This document shows positions 14,795-21,370 of a DNA stretch of 21,828 nt, in pieces; position 1 is the first letter of the stretch; every line of letters begins with the position of its first letter. The notes below the pieces were generated by a model that worked only from the letters and a program-made list of their open reading frames with translations, was not told the DNA's origin and did not search any database. A program made the translations under genes and the position numbers. This stretch comes from a virus. The DNA is taken from IMG/VR virus record IMGVR_UViG_3300007734_000467, positions 1 through 21,828 of that record, one strand, 5' to 3'.

Positions 14795-14977
14795 CTATTT
14801 TTTTCTATACTCTTGAATAGCATAAGTCATCAACGCTATTAACGTAAGCACATATAATGCTCTTGATATCCAATGCCAGTTAAGTGGATTAAATTCACCT
14901 AATACAAAAGCATAAGGCAAATATACTACTACCAATAATACTAACAAATTAAGAGTGAAATCTTTTATAGTTTTCAT
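14795..14977 (-). CDS. Small membrane protein (two segments)
   Basis: This 60-residue protein has hydrophobic segments at about 8-25 (TLNLLVLLVVVYLPYAFVLG) and about 37-53 (ISRALYVLTLIALMTYAI), a short loop (EFNPLNWHW) and a basic end (QEYRKK). It is the last gene of the early operon and overlaps the upstream stop by one base (TAATG). A membrane role such as superinfection exclusion or a holin-like function is possible; no family is recognised. Confidence 0.6.
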   Translation of the reverse strand: MKTIKDFTLNLLVLLVVVYLPYAFVLGEFNPLNWHWISRALYVLTLIALMTYAIQEYRKK

Positions 14978-15228
14978 TAGAATGGTAATTTTTCTTTTGG
15001 TTTACCATCAGCCTTCCAAGTATCAAGCTCGATATAAAATCCAGCTTCACCTGGAGTAGCTCCTTTTTTTTCTTTGATTAAGATATTGCACCAACCATTG
15101 TTAGTTCCTGCAAAATCATTCATCTTTTTTAAATCATCTGGTCCGAATGAAACTTTTTTAAATTCACCGAACGCTGTTTTCATAGTCTGTGATCTGCCTA
15201 AGAAAACCTTTTCTTTACCTGCTGCCAT
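14977..15228 (-). CDS. Conserved hypothetical phage protein
   Basis: This 83-residue protein reads GRSQTMKTAFGEFKKVSFGPDDLKKMNDFA in its first half, then WCNILIKEKK ... GFYIELDTWKADGK with a C-terminal LPF. The pattern GRSQT...FGEF-x-KVSFGP is one I associate with small early proteins of Bacteroidetes phages, often near replication genes. The beta pattern and short acidic/hydrophobic C-terminus are reminiscent of single-strand DNA-binding accessory proteins, but that is speculation. Start follows the leader AATCAAAAATAAACAAC. Confidence 0.6.
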   Translation of the reverse strand: MAAGKEKVFLGRSQTMKTAFGEFKKVSFGPDDLKKMNDFAGTNNGWCNILIKEKKGATPGEAGFYIELDTWKADGKPKEKLPF

Positions 15229-15246: not shown

Positions 15247-15849
15247 TTAATTAATTCTATTTCCTTTTTTTATATTTTCTATTGCAAACATAGGTTGTAA
15301 GTTGCTATAATGACAATATTTTGCAGTTTCATAAATATCAAGCCAATTTATTTTAGATAATGGATAAATATGATCTATGTGCCAAACCTTACCATAATTT
15401 TCCCAAGACATTCCTATTTTAAACTGTATTTGAATATATTTTTTAAGATATTCAGAATCACAACCAAGCATATCCGTAGTTCTAAAATTTTTATTATTAC
15501 CTGAATTTTTAACCGCCTTATTATGCCTATCTCTTAATGTTCTGATTAATTTATATGAAGAGTCGTTTTTTATCCTTCTTTTTTTATATAAATTATCATA
15601 AGCTATTTCTTTTGTTTTATTTTTTAAATACCTATTCCTTCTTCTATTTGATTCTTTTTCCTTATTTTTTAGTCTATATGTTTTATGTCTATTATTCGTG
15701 CATAGTTTACAAATATTAGAAATACCATCGTATTTACTTTTATTCTTAGGAAAAGAATCTATATTTTTATGATTTTTACAATCACTACAAATTTTTAATC
15801 CATTGTTGTCATAAGACATTTTGGGATATGGTTTACCTTTTGGATACAT
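15247..15849 (-). CDS. HNH endonuclease with N-terminal zinc finger
   Basis: This 200-residue protein has a Cys4 zinc-binding module (C21-x-x-C24 and C47-x-x-C50), a long Lys/Arg-rich middle (55-115), and a C-terminal HNH core. The core contains W-H-I-D-H (156-160), Y-S-N-L-Q-P (181-186) and E-N-I-K-K-G-N (191-197). Free-standing HNH enzymes of this kind usually behave as homing endonucleases, cutting DNA at a specific site and spreading by repair. The gene is more AT-rich than its neighbours and sits between two small early genes. This suggests recent insertion. Confidence 0.85.
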   Translation of the reverse strand: MYPKGKPYPKMSYDNNGLKICSDCKNHKNIDSFPKNKSKYDGISNICKLCTNNRHKTYRLKNKEKESNRRRNRYLKNKTKEIAYDNLYKKRRIKNDSSYKLIRTLRDRHNKAVKNSGNNKNFRTTDMLGCDSEYLKKYIQIQFKIGMSWENYGKVWHIDHIYPLSKINWLDIYETAKYCHYSNLQPMFAIENIKKGNRIN

Positions 15850-18025: not shown

Positions 18026-18235
18026 TTATTTGTTTTTATTAATTACGTATTTATTTTCATCAAAATCAATATCAAATATCTTTATCCATCTATAAAGGGA
18101 TCTATCCGTTATACCTATCTTATTAGCAGCCTCTTTAATTGTTTTAGAACAATCTAATGCTTTTATGGCAAGTATTTTATGATGGTCGTGTATGTTTAGG
18201 TTTTCTATCATATTTTCTTTATGCATAATCTTCAA
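18026..18235 (-). CDS. Fis-like helix-turn-helix protein
   Basis: This 69-residue protein may start at 18235, 18226 or 18211; the last gives 61 residues and reduces overlap with DnaB. Residues about 26-56 read AIKALDCSKTIKEAANKIGI then TDRSLYRWIKIF, the pattern of Fis-type HTH (A...A-x-x-x-G-I-[ST]-x-R-[ST]-L-Y-R). It is small enough to be only the DNA-binding unit. It probably regulates transcription of this operon or recruits machinery to DNA. It overlaps the end of the DnaB gene by 17 bases. Confidence 0.7.
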   Translation of the reverse strand: MKIMHKENMIENLNIHDHHKILAIKALDCSKTIKEAANKIGITDRSLYRWIKIFDIDFDENKYVINKNK

Positions 18236-19553
18236 ATTTCATTGTTTCAGGTAAAAATCTTAATGCTATGTTTTTGGTACTTCCATGCCTGTTCTTCTCC
18301 ACTTTACAAACCACTAAATCCTTTGGAGAATATTCCTTACCTCCAATCTCAATAGCTTCAGTCATTTCATAGTAAGCAGGTCGCATGAGCATAATAACCG
18401 CATCAGCATCTTGTTCAATCGATCCTGATTCTCTTAGGTCAGATAACTGAGGCATCTTATCTCCCCTTTCCTCTACTCTACGAGATAATTGAGATAGGGC
18501 GATAATAGGTACTTCCAACTCCTTAGCTAGGGCTTTTAGGCTTCTACTAATGTAGCTCACCTCTTGCTCTCTGTTTTGGTTTGATTTGCCTGTTCCACTC
18601 ATTAGTTGGAGGTAATCAATAAAAATCACCTTGATTCCATACTTCTGTTTCATGATGGTGGCTTTAGCTCTAAGTTGGGTTACACTTATACCGCCCATAT
18701 CTTCAATATGTATGGGGGAAGTTAATAACAAGTCATCTGTCTTTAAAAGTTGCTTTCTCTGAGCATCCGTCAAATTATTCATTCTAAGCCATTTTAAGGG
18801 CAGTTCCGAACTGATTGACTCTAACCTTTCAACTAACTGCTCGGAGCTCATTTCTAGGCTAAAAATAGCCGTAGGAACGTTATTTATACAAGCTAGTTGG
18901 TAGATACTAGAAAGCATGAAGGCTGTCTTACCCATTCCAGGTCTTGCAGCTACGATTACTAGGTCAGGTTTAACCCATCCGCATAGGGTGTTGTTTAGCT
19001 CATTAAACCCTGTGTTATAGCCCAATAAAGCCCCATTTTGAGCTGTATCACGAGAATAATTGAGCGATAAAATGATATCTTCCATCATCTTTTCGTAGAT
19101 ATTACCAAACTCTTGCAGTTGGATAAGTTTTTTGCTCATCTCAGCCATAAAGTCTATGGTTTCTACCTGACCGCCTACCGCCCCATTCATCATTTCTCGC
19201 CCCAGCTCGACCAGGATTCTTCTTTTATATAACTCTATAATTAACTCTATATGGGTGTTTAGGTGAGCAGTTGTTACCACATCTTTAGTTAACTCAGAAA
19301 GATAGTAAGCATTTACTTGATCCGTTAGTTTATTATCTACTAATCTTTGGAATACAGTAGTTAAGTCTATCTGAATGTTCTTATCATACATCTCTTTAAT
19401 GACTCTAAACACCGTTTGATGTTTATAGTCGTAAAATATATCCTCTTTTAAGTAGTTGATAACCAATGACAAAGACTTTTTGTCTATCAGTAGCGAACCT
19501 AAGATATTCCTTTCTACTTCTATATTTTTAGGTAAGTCTATTACTTGTATCAT
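18219..19553 (-). CDS. dnaB: Replicative DNA helicase, DnaB family
   Basis: This 444-residue protein has the two-domain DnaB layout. The N-terminal domain covers about 1-150 (IEVERNILGSLLID at the start). The RecA-like domain contains Walker A A-R-P-G-M-G-K-T (203-210), F-S-L-E-M (231-235), Walker B V-I-F-I-D-Y-L-Q-L (309-317), S-Q-L-S-R (354-358), D-L-R-E-S-G-S-I-E-Q-D (372-382) and the arginine-finger region K-N-R-H-G (420-424). It unwinds DNA at the phage fork as a hexamer. Its ATG overlaps the upstream stop (ATGA). Length is normal; no intein or other insertion is seen. Confidence 0.95.
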   Translation of the reverse strand: MIQVIDLPKNIEVERNILGSLLIDKKSLSLVINYLKEDIFYDYKHQTVFRVIKEMYDKNIQIDLTTVFQRLVDNKLTDQVNAYYLSELTKDVVTTAHLNTHIELIIELYKRRILVELGREMMNGAVGGQVETIDFMAEMSKKLIQLQEFGNIYEKMMEDIILSLNYSRDTAQNGALLGYNTGFNELNNTLCGWVKPDLVIVAARPGMGKTAFMLSSIYQLACINNVPTAIFSLEMSSEQLVERLESISSELPLKWLRMNNLTDAQRKQLLKTDDLLLTSPIHIEDMGGISVTQLRAKATIMKQKYGIKVIFIDYLQLMSGTGKSNQNREQEVSYISRSLKALAKELEVPIIALSQLSRRVEERGDKMPQLSDLRESGSIEQDADAVIMLMRPAYYEMTEAIEIGGKEYSPKDLVVCKVEKNRHGSTKNIALRFLPETMKFEDYA

Positions 19554-19795
19554 AGTGCTTCTATTTCTTGTTTAACTTCTTTCCAAAATAATAATTCATT
19601 TGAATCCGTATAAGAATAATATCCTGTTTCAGGGTTATATATTGCTCTATGTTGATGGTCAATATTATAAATCTGCACAATCAATTCATTTACTGTTATC
19701 AATGCACATTGTTTGGCTTTAAATTCATAATCGCATTCTCTACAACTAAATGCCATAGATTCAACTAATTGAAATGCTTTTTCTTTTGGTGTCAT
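19550..19795 (-). CDS. Small conserved phage protein
   Basis: This 81-residue protein reads MTPKEKAFQLVESMAFSC, then KAKQCALITVNELIVQIYNI, then a Tyr-rich stretch and WKEVKQEIEAL. The pattern K-x-x-A-x-x-L-V and K-x-C-A-L-I-x-V-x-E-[LI]-I is common in small proteins of Bacteroidetes phages near replication genes; function unknown. It is linked by ATGA overlaps to the genes on both sides (19795 and 19553). So it is co-translated with the replication protein and DnaB. Confidence 0.7.
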   Translation of the reverse strand: MTPKEKAFQLVESMAFSCRECDYEFKAKQCALITVNELIVQIYNIDHQHRAIYNPETGYYSYTDSNELLFWKEVKQEIEAL

Positions 19796-20406
19796 TTTAG
19801 TTTAATTTTTGTGTTTGTAGTATCTGTGTTATACTTTGATGAGTTCCTTTTCCATGTTCTTACTGCTGCTTTCCAATCCTTCATAGGATTTTTACTTACT
19901 AACCAACCTCTAGCTTCATTAAAATCACAAAAATATTCTCCATCCAAATTGAAATTTATTTCTTTAGCATAATCGGTTACTTCTTTAGCAGTAGGTTTAA
20001 TAAATTTTTTTTCTTTATATATCTTATTAGTATTATTAATAGATGTATTATTAATCAATGTATTATTATCCTTCGCCTTTTCCGAATACCCCTCTTCGGT
20101 ATTCCGAATACCCCCATCGATTTTCCGAATAGGTATAGTAGGTGTTAAAATCCTTTGTTTTACTTGTTTTCCTTCGTACAAAAGAAAGGTGGTTATATAA
20201 CCCTTACTAACCAAAGAAGCTATCATTTCACTTACCCTTGAATTGCTTAAATTAAAAAACTCACCGAAATATCCATTGGAAGCAAAGCATCCTTTTTCTG
20301 CATCTAAACTATCTATCTCAACTAATAACAGCTTTTCCATCCAAGTAAGGTTATGATCTAACCATACATCCTTAGGAATCCATACACCTTTAAAATCTCT
20401 ATTCAT
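19792..20406 (-). CDS. Replication protein with N-terminal winged helix (helicase loader/initiator-like)
   Basis: This 204-residue protein has an N-terminal HTH_36-type domain: W-M-E-K-L-L-L-V-E-I-D (22-32), then CFASNGYFGEFFNLSNSRVSEMI (40-62) and LVSKGYITTFLLYEGK. A low-complexity Asn/Ile/Thr linker spans about 113-131. The C-terminal DnaD/DnaT-like part ends ARGWLVSKNPMKDWKAAVRTWKRN (165-188). Proteins of this layout recruit DnaB to the origin, and dnaB lies two genes downstream. The linker coincides with repeated DNA (20030-20131) resembling an origin, as in lambda O. The start has no Shine-Dalgarno sequence. Confidence 0.75.
   Translation of the reverse strand: MNRDFKGVWIPKDVWLDHNLTWMEKLLLVEIDSLDAEKGCFASNGYFGEFFNLSNSRVSEMIASLVSKGYITTFLLYEGKQVKQRILTPTIPIRKIDGGIRNTEEGYSEKAKDNNTLINNTSINNTNKIYKEKKFIKPTAKEVTDYAKEINFNLDGEYFCDFNEARGWLVSKNPMKDWKAAVRTWKRNSSKYNTDTTNTKIKLK
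20030..20068. repeat. Three tandem 15-bp AT-rich repeats
   Basis: GTATTATTA begins at 20030, 20045 and 20060, an exact 15-bp period, with AT-rich spacers. On the coding strand it encodes the Asn/Ile/Thr-rich linker. Candidate DNA unwinding element. Confidence 0.75.
20081..20131. repeat. Three iterons (TCCGAATA), spacing 22 and 21 bp
   Basis: TCCGAATA at 20081-20088, 20103-20110 and 20124-20131, each preceded by T; on the - strand TATTCGGAA. The middle copy is part of a perfect 15-bp palindrome, GGTATTC-C-GAATACC (20098-20112). Two copies are read in one frame (IRK, IRN) and one in another (YSE), so conservation is at DNA level. Confidence 0.7.
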
Positions 20407-20416
20407 ACGTTTAGTT

Positions 20417-21055
20417 TTATACCCATTGACTAGCCATTGCTTTAGCTATTCCTGGAAATGTTTTACTTCTTAATGTTCTTCTTTGTTCTTTATTCAATCC
20501 ATGTTGCATAAAAGCATCAGCATACCATTGAGGTTGTCTTTTTTCTTTGCCTGTTTTTTTATCAATCCACGTAAAAAATTCGCCTTTTGAAACAATGTTT
20601 GTTGGTTTTAATAAAGGTAAATTTTTAAGCCAAAGACAAGTTGATTTACTTGCAGAATCGCCAAACCAATATGGTTGTATTATTTGATCTGGTTTTCTAA
20701 TTTTACTACTAATTACACTTATAGGGTTTTCAATAGCTATTTTAAAAATATCTACGTTCATTAATTTTCGTACAAAATCTAAAGCTTCCATTTGATTATC
20801 GTATCTTTCTTTATTAATCGAACCATCCTTATTATAAAGCCATCTAGCACCACTAACCGATAAATATGTACATGGTGGATGTGCTATCATTAAATCGTAC
20901 CCCCCCCCAACAACATTAAAAACATCATCTTGAATATGCCATTCAGGGTGTCCACCACTACATGGTAAAATATCACAACTAAATGCCTCGTGTCCTAATA
21001 ATCTAAATTCTTTTGCTACAGTTTGGCTTTCTTCACAAGCTACTAATACTTTCAT
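20417..21055 (-). CDS. Phage DNA cytosine-methyltransferase-like protein
   Basis: Read from ATG 21055 (MKVLVACEESQTVAKEFRLL) it is 212 residues; the longer frame to 21100 runs through a terminator and is not used. Motifs: A-C-E-E-S near the N-terminus in place of the usual glycine-rich SAM loop, H-P-P-C (59-62) like motif IV with Cys62, and I-E-N-P (108-111) like the motif VI Glu-Asn. The end is basic (EQRRTLRSKTFPGIAKAMA). Such short proteins are common in phages and usually annotated as methyltransferases. They lack an obvious target-recognition domain, and activity is unproven. A G9 run encodes Gly50-52. Confidence 0.75.
   Translation of the reverse strand: MKVLVACEESQTVAKEFRLLGHEAFSCDILPCSGGHPEWHIQDDVFNVVGGGYDLMIAHPPCTYLSVSGARWLYNKDGSINKERYDNQMEALDFVRKLMNVDIFKIAIENPISVISSKIRKPDQIIQPYWFGDSASKSTCLWLKNLPLLKPTNIVSKGEFFTWIDKKTGKEKRQPQWYADAFMQHGLNKEQRRTLRSKTFPGIAKAMASQWV
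20900..20908 (-). repeat. G9 homopolymer inside the methyltransferase gene
   Basis: Nine C on the + strand (nine G in the coding strand) encode three glycines just before the catalytic-like HPPC motif. Such a tract stands out in AT-rich DNA and is prone to slippage. Confidence 0.95.
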
Positions 21056-21060
21056 AAAAT

Positions 21061-21143
21061 AAAAAAAGCCCATCGGATTTGCTGGTAGTTGCAGTACCAA
21101 CGCCTCCTAGGGCAAAAAGTTCTAAATGAGTCTGCAACACTCA
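21061..21143 (-). ncRNA. Kissing-loop RNA / attenuator upstream of the methyltransferase gene
   Basis: Read on the - strand, hairpin 1 is TGAGT-loop-ACTCA (21143-21127) with 7-nt loop GTTGCAG (21138-21132). Hairpin 2 is GTTGGTA-loop-TACCAGC (21101-21081, one G-U pair) with 7-nt loop CTGCAAC (21094-21088). The two loops are perfect complements. Hairpin 2 is extended by GGA/TCC and GCCC/GGGC pairing (21113-21110 with 21071-21068) and followed by seven T (21067-21061), making it a terminator. A TATATTTG box lies just upstream. It could be a free small RNA or control read-through into the methyltransferase and replication genes. Confidence 0.6.
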
Positions 21144-21146
21144 CAA

Positions 21147-21154
21147 CAAATATA
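21147..21154 (-). promoter_or_regulatory. TAnnTTTG -7 element upstream of the kissing-loop RNA
   Basis: TATATTTG on the - strand directly after the stop of the upstream gene; transcription would start at about 21143-21140, at the base of hairpin 1. A TTG lies 14 bases upstream, shorter than the usual 19, so the -33 box is doubtful. Confidence 0.4.
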
Positions 21155-21370
21155 CTAAACTTCCTTAGCAATCCTAAAAACCACCTTTCTATTTTCTACC
21201 ATAAATCTCTTACGAGCCATAGGGTTAAGTGATTCTCTGATTACTTGAGCTGCTATCTTAGTCTTGCGACTAGCTAAAGCTGCTGATTTAAAAATAACCT
21301 CTTCTCTCGTGTCAGTATAAACCATTCTAATGGCTACTGAGTTCTCTAATCCTTTTATCTCACCTGGCAT
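21155..21370 (-). CDS. Small hypothetical basic protein
   Basis: This 71-residue protein begins MPGEIKGLENSVAIRMVYTD and has a Lys/Arg/Ala-rich helix AALASRKTKIAAQVIRESL (31-49) and the end KRFMVENRKVVFRIAKEV. The basic surface could bind nucleic acid; no family is recognised. It overlaps the previous gene by 11 bases and ends exactly at the promoter-like box of the kissing-loop RNA. Confidence 0.6.
   Translation of the reverse strand: MPGEIKGLENSVAIRMVYTDTREEVIFKSAALASRKTKIAAQVIRESLNPMARKRFMVENRKVVFRIAKEV

Follow-up and report, generated by a model that had tools for sequence, protein, structure and literature searches.

RNA I and RNA II of ColE1 are transcribed from opposite strands, have three loops, and exert primer control, and their 7-nt loops pair over the full length. 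The c4 RNA of phage P1 is a small phage RNA from a leader that belongs to an antirepressor-operon immunity system, in which control is by termination. The CI RNA of P4 binds to separate sites and thereby halts its replication operon (PMC4825925), the pT181 attenuators respond to a separate antisense RNA, for which orthogonal specificities are possible (PMC3753616), and the pRNA of phi29 uses four-base intermolecular loops in the packaging motor (PMC7357161). In none of the last three, P4 CI, pT181, and phi29 pRNA, do both partner loops belong to a single short RNA that terminates itself.

The element analyzed here is predicted to have this arrangement. It lies on the minus strand, from position 21154 down to 21061, of a viral stretch of 21,828 nucleotides (IMG/VR record IMGVR_UViG_3300007734_000467, positions 1 to 21,828), hereafter called the window. 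The Flavobacterium sigma-A box TAnnTTTG occupies positions −12 to −5 (PMC9723704); in the window, the box is followed by TTGT, with a 4-nt spacer between the −7 box and the predicted +1. From the published box position, +1 was placed at 21142, which gives an RNA of about 82 nt. The features of the element and its neighborhood are as follows.

21155 to 21370, minus strand: upstream open reading frame of 71 amino acids, stop codon abutting the promoter, a variable cassette in relatives
21147 to 21154, minus strand: sigma-A −7 box TATATTTG (TAnnTTTG), from the sequence
21142, minus strand: predicted transcription start +1 (G), placed by the 4-nt spacer; it opens the 4-bp GAGT/ACTC core of hairpin 1
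21127 to 21143, minus strand: hairpin 1, TGAGT, loop GTTGCAG (21132-21138), ACTCA, from the sequence; 5 of 5 pairs covary
21114 to 21126, minus strand: A/U-rich linker of 13 nt from hairpin 1 to the terminator hairpin, from the sequence
21068 to 21113, minus strand: terminator hairpin H2 with apical loop CTGCAAC (21088-21094), from sequence, folding, and covariation
21088 to 21138, minus strand: loop-loop (kissing) helix, 21132-21138 with 21088-21094, 7 bp, all Watson-Crick, from covariation
21061 to 21067, minus strand: U7 tract, predicted 3′ end of the RNA, from the sequence
20417 to 21055, minus strand: DNA methyltransferase (phrog_757), first gene after the terminator, with its ATG at 21055, 6 nt past the U tract
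19792 to 20406, minus strand: replication initiation/DnaD-like protein (HTH_36; phrog_270, phrog_428)
18219 to 19553, minus strand: DnaB replicative helicase (PF03796, E = 1e-87)

H2 is built from an outer stem GCCC (21113-21110)/GGGC (21071-21068), a middle stem GGA/TCC (21107-21105 with 21077-21075), and an inner hairpin GTTGGTA/CTGCAAC/TACCAGC (21101-21081). Together with U7, it has the form of an intrinsic terminator, a G+C-rich hairpin followed by a U tract, and the element as a whole has the two apical loops with compensatory changes that mark a kissing-loop RNA. The parts named in the original prediction (hairpins, loops, GCCC/GGGC base, T7, and promoter box) are all present, on the minus strand and with loops complementary at 7 of 7 positions, and the gene order is indeed terminator, methyltransferase, replication protein, DnaB; for the second hairpin, the GCCC/GGGC base and the inner stem had been recognized, but the third stem, GGA/TCC, had been overlooked.

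As in pT181, loop-loop pairing is combined with an intrinsic terminator between the promoter and the replication-initiator gene (here read from sequence only); unlike in pT181, where the antisense RNA is separate, it is the sense RNA that carries the partner loop. With the P4 CI and P1 c4 RNAs, the element shares the character of a putative small RNA from a replication or antirepressor leader with short complementary segments and a presumed control by termination, and it heads replication operons in most carriers. However, those RNAs pair with separate upstream or downstream segments, whereas both segments here are apical loops of one RNA of about 80 nt, the predicted end of which is an intrinsic terminator of its own. 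Separate targets beyond the RNA, as known for P4 CI and P1 c4, were not apparent: loop-complementary sites elsewhere in the phage genomes were not enriched (44 observed versus 36 expected), and loop 2 is therefore taken as the partner of loop 1. We know of no earlier description of a terminator loop that is the covarying kissing partner of the transcript's first hairpin, and this holds even if the pairing occurs only in cis.

The structure is strongly supported by compensatory evolution. In an alignment of 15 sequences with 25 pairs, 96.5% of the cells were paired, compared to 64% in shuffled and 32 to 42% in slid alignments, and 23 of the 25 pairs had double changes; the 7-bp loop-loop helix was 100% Watson-Crick, with covariation at six of its seven positions. 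Furthermore, in an independent ortholog group (n = 5), three of eight loop-loop pairs were altered on both sides while pairing stayed at 100%. Because the homologues covary, the complementarity of the loops is real and beyond chance, and the proposed RNA, in which a promoter precedes two hairpins that kiss through perfectly matched 7-nt loops and a terminator follows, is thereby strongly supported. Uncompensated loop changes, which had been named as evidence to the contrary, were looked for across about 30 loop types and were absent, with the exception of a short contig from a bacterial assembly (G335), in which six of seven loop bases pair. The 7-nt loops usually read N-U-N-N-N-A-N, and both partners do so because the pattern is self-complementary. 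Mimicry of an anticodon loop was considered for this pattern and rejected: apart from the self-complementarity, each position is obeyed by only 15 to 16 of 20 types, and we treat the pattern as kissing-loop geometry.

With a promoter-blind descriptor, the window site scored 43, a value reached by 0 of 400 dinucleotide shuffles of the window (40 was attained by 2 of 400). In a scan that required the loops and was likewise blind to the promoter, a T[A/T]nnTTTG box was found upstream of every match scoring at least 40 and of none below 38, which is the level of shuffled sequence, although a score of 41.5 was attained in one of three shuffles. The folding z score of the window element, with the loop-loop pairs left uncounted, was −2.2. 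Rfam 15 gave no family at gathering score in the window or six relatives and nothing meaningful at E ≤ 10, in agreement with the earlier remark that the element matches no named riboswitch or phage RNA, and a search of the literature on Flavobacterium phages for such an RNA returned nothing relevant. The RNA constitutes a new family without an Rfam match, and in kind it would be a kissing-loop leader/attenuator RNA.

About 100 copies were collected from metagenomic phage contigs, isolated phages (Flavobacterium phages 11b, sniff9-1, tooticki, hattifnatt, and elemoA and Olleya phage Harreka_1), and two bacterial assemblies, in one of which the copy is integrated. The plan is constant: a TAnnTTTG promoter, a 5′ hairpin that begins no more than a few bases from the predicted +1, a linker rich in A/U, and an intrinsic-terminator hairpin whose apical loop is complementary to that of hairpin 1 over 6 to 9 bases, mostly 7 to 8. 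Counting the relaxed scan and other elements, there are about 30 different loop pairs, nearly all perfect, with predicted duplex energies mostly between −7 and −12 kcal/mol. In most members, each of the two terminator arms that flank the loop is about 18 to 21 nt long, and 18 to 32 nt separate loop 1 from the terminator base (33 distinct elements). The longest predicted hairpin-1 stem starts at most 2 bases from +1 in 25 of 43 distinct promoter-RNA combinations, and the predicted +1 is a G in 28 of them. Linker length was not correlated with terminator length (Spearman −0.23, p = 0.20); a strict intramolecular geometry might demand that the two scale.

Part of the members were gathered by a descriptor that demanded loop complementarity, and therefore, the claim that the loops match rests on covariation and on three sets obtained otherwise. 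Loci found by methyltransferase homology only have, in the same place, GTCGGAT/ATCCGAC (L003), GTAGGAT/ATCCTAC (L004), and GTAGGAG/CTCCTAC (L060). A covariance model without a loop-loop term found the new elements GGACGAG/CTCGTCC, ATTGCAG/CTGCAAT, and ATGGTAC/GTACCAT, as well as GTCTCAC/GTGAGAC at E = 0.018, all with loops that are perfect partners. Isolated phages were located via their replication protein, and the RNA was then read in the intergenic gaps: sniff9-1, tooticki, and hattifnatt have two copies each (GTCGTCG/CGACGAC and GTGAGACG/CGTCTCAC), Harreka_1 has GTGGTGG/CCACCAC, and 11b has, in a reading by eye, CGGGCAGG/CCTGCCCG. The element of elemoA (TGAGAGC) came from the relaxed scan. 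The copy regarded as integrated (G127; C1, ~415.5 kb; L286:9532-9700) is so regarded since its contig is bacterial and 1.1 Mb in size; a phage-type replication gene follows shortly downstream. Read by eye, the loop of its 5′ hairpin, ATTGACAC, has its pairing partner, TGTCAAT, within a terminator hairpin that is very long. A covariance-model search of 395 Bacteroidota genomes gave no matches, although with 11 candidates scored per genome, it was too shallow to define the distribution outside phages. Bacterial loci around methyltransferase homologues did not contain the RNA, and no element was seen in Flavobacterium phage 6H or in the stretches of Cellulophaga phages phi18:1 and phi19:3 that were inspected.

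In most elements, the U tract is 7 to 20 nt from the next start codon. Relatives of the window have the order RNA, methyltransferase or HNH endonuclease (optional), initiator (four unrelated types), and DnaB; a second, distant set has the order RNA, ORF of ~70 amino acids, MAEDKK-type replication protein, and primase/helicase or loader. The RNA heads two unrelated kinds of replication operon in unrelated phages, a location that is usual, not universal: some copies precede an HNH endonuclease gene, a ParB-like gene, or a methyltransferase gene without replication genes (L060), and second copies are placed before HNH endonuclease genes. Two copies with the loops GTACCAG/CTGGTAC (L178:14427-14519 and L152:3680-3790) lie at the end of the early region, before small homing-endonuclease-like ORFs. 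In the loci L082 to L132, one and the same slot before a conserved DnaB holds four unrelated initiators (MNHNW.., MNRDFKG.., MNTG.., and MEHHFN..).

RNA alleles differ between otherwise similar phages. Over 250 nt upstream and 400 nt downstream of the RNA, the flanks of L100 and L129 are 96.4% and 98.8% identical, whereas the RNAs are 52.6% identical and differ in their loops; for L110 and L091, the flanks are 96 to 99% identical, the RNAs 86.6%, and three of seven loop positions are changed on each side. The information that loop type has in common with the type of the downstream initiator is 1.23 of 1.79 bits (0 of 2,000 shuffles), and with the upstream gene it is 0.26 bits (52 of 2,000 shuffles), descriptive values in which kinship is ignored. 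Descriptively, then, the RNA allele tracks the downstream initiator gene and not the upstream gene, a coupling that could be simple linkage. In every record that has two copies (G019, L225, the lillamy/mumin group, and G040), the two loop pairs differ. Per site, the loops diverge only ~1.3 to 2 times as much as the rest of the RNA, though every change needs a change in the partner. Such diversity of the loops points to an RNA switch that gives phage replication a specificity tag of its own. L100, L103, L104, and their relatives, which are near-identical phages, carry interchangeable cassettes immediately before the same promoter of the RNA, either the 71-aa ORF or one of two kinds of DNA methyltransferase.

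We give about an even chance to the view that the element is a self-contained, self-terminating attenuator RNA that usually heads a replication operon. In our model, the host RNA polymerase would start at TAnnTTTG, and hairpin 1 would form at the extreme 5′ end of the transcript. Some 80 to 105 nt further on, the polymerase would reach the intrinsic terminator, with an apical loop exactly complementary to that of hairpin 1; there, the majority of transcripts would end, as a stable small RNA with a hairpin at either end, and read-through would feed the initiator and helicase genes a few nucleotides downstream. The frequency of read-through may be tuned by pairing of the loops, either inside the nascent RNA or between released and nascent RNA, or both. 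Since the loops are private to each allele, control would be phage specific, akin to a copy-number or incompatibility tag, and a released RNA able to engage nascent leaders of the same type would have what a dosage- or identity-sensing attenuator needs. The sequences show the promoter, the structure with its terminator architecture and covarying loops, the location, the diversity of alleles, and the coupling to the initiator gene; from these, we infer transcription, termination mostly at the U tract, an effect of pairing on read-through, and pairing in trans; we also infer the direction of regulation and the balance of cis and trans pairing. Sequence-specific control of the attenuator by loop pairing, in cis or between copies, by analogy with the copy-number RNAs of plasmids or immunity RNAs of the P4 type, is the best reading of our analysis. 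The original prediction had left the choice between an attenuator, a free small RNA, and a dimerizing RNA open; the position at the head of operons and the coupling to the initiator gene favor an attenuator or trans-acting regulator.

The minimum-energy fold of the window element already holds the terminator, inspection revealed no antiterminator pairing, and loop pairing leaves the terminator stem intact. Attenuation by a leader peptide was rejected because hairpin 1, with its start near +1, does not leave space for an ORF. A more specific version of the attenuator, in which the released RNA is a trans-acting compatibility tag that pairs with nascent leaders of the same type, so that its dosage sets the expression of the replication genes, is put forward tentatively. 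All linkers are long enough for purely intramolecular pairing; thus, an intramolecular lock is compatible with the data, and trans action is not required. If the RNA did act in trans, loop alleles would define compatibility groups among Bacteroidota tailed phages, tailed phages would have a plasmid-style copy-number system based on RNA dosage, and ready orthogonal RNA switches would be at hand for Bacteroidota, where genetic parts are scarce. In any case, the family is widespread, its carriers are phages of Flavobacterium-like bacteria that include isolated, culturable ones, the literature searched held no mention of it, and a single scaffold with about 30 natural, orthogonal loop pairs, placed for the most part before replication genes, amounts to a testable design.

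The conservation of shape and dimensions, but not of sequence, would also be expected of a free-standing structural small RNA, in which the kissing loops merely lock the fold by joining the 5′ and 3′ hairpins. The locked fold might be recognized by a host or phage protein or protect the RNA, and the site before replication genes would be a convenient gap; the sterically possible intramolecular pairing in all members and the copies before nonreplication genes are consistent with this. We nevertheless regard it as rather unlikely, as it leaves unexplained the exchange of alleles between near-identical flanks, the coupling to the initiator, and the repeated placement of the RNA as the first element of replication operons of two unrelated kinds. 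An RNA for superinfection immunity or exclusion, like P4 CI RNA or P1 c4, in which one phage's RNA would pair with the leader of a superinfecting phage that has identical loops and would shut off that phage's replication operon, would make the alleles immunity groups. The replication-operon leader, the allele diversity in the same backbone, the integrated copy ahead of a replication gene on the 1.1-Mb bacterial contig, and the precedent of P4 (PMC4825925) argue for it; with no integrase identified in the window, many carriers that may be lytic, no separate target sites, and a termination that would here be intrinsic, we consider it improbable.

Much less credit is due to an RNA that acts at the replication origin, as a primer or ori-activating transcript whose loop pairing controls an RNA-DNA hybrid as in ColE1. 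The 7-nt loops that pair over their whole length are indeed alike, and the element adjoins initiator and helicase genes, but the two opposite-strand RNAs, the three loops, and the primer control of ColE1 are not seen here, the terminator U tract is strong, replication genes are distant from some of the copies, and two copies occur in some phages. Even less plausible is an RNA that forms dimers or oligomers for packaging as phi29 pRNA does: two mutually complementary loops on one phage RNA, covarying between phages, are common to both, but the element sits with early replication genes and not with packaging genes, pairs over 7 to 8 bp instead of 4, lacks a three-way junction, and has no Rfam match. 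Finally, chance hairpins beside a promoter and a terminator that are ordinary by themselves are refuted by the homologues, with their covarying, nearly always perfect loop pairs that shuffles do not reproduce.

In the window, the reading frame of the methyltransferase stays open upstream as far as a TTG within the terminator hairpin (20417-21100, minus strand; 227 aa). An N-terminal extension from this TTG through the terminator was rejected: between relatives, the RNA covaries in its pairs and has frame-breaking indels that are not multiples of three, which argues for the ATG at 21055 as the true start. In the same gene, a tract of some nine C, which are G on the coding strand, at ~20900-20908 stands out in this A+T-rich phage and may be a site of slippage or phase variation or a weak point of sequencing. 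Two further early-region ORFs (14977-15228 and 15247-15849, minus strand) adjoin an HNH/endonuclease-VII-like gene (phrog_1035).
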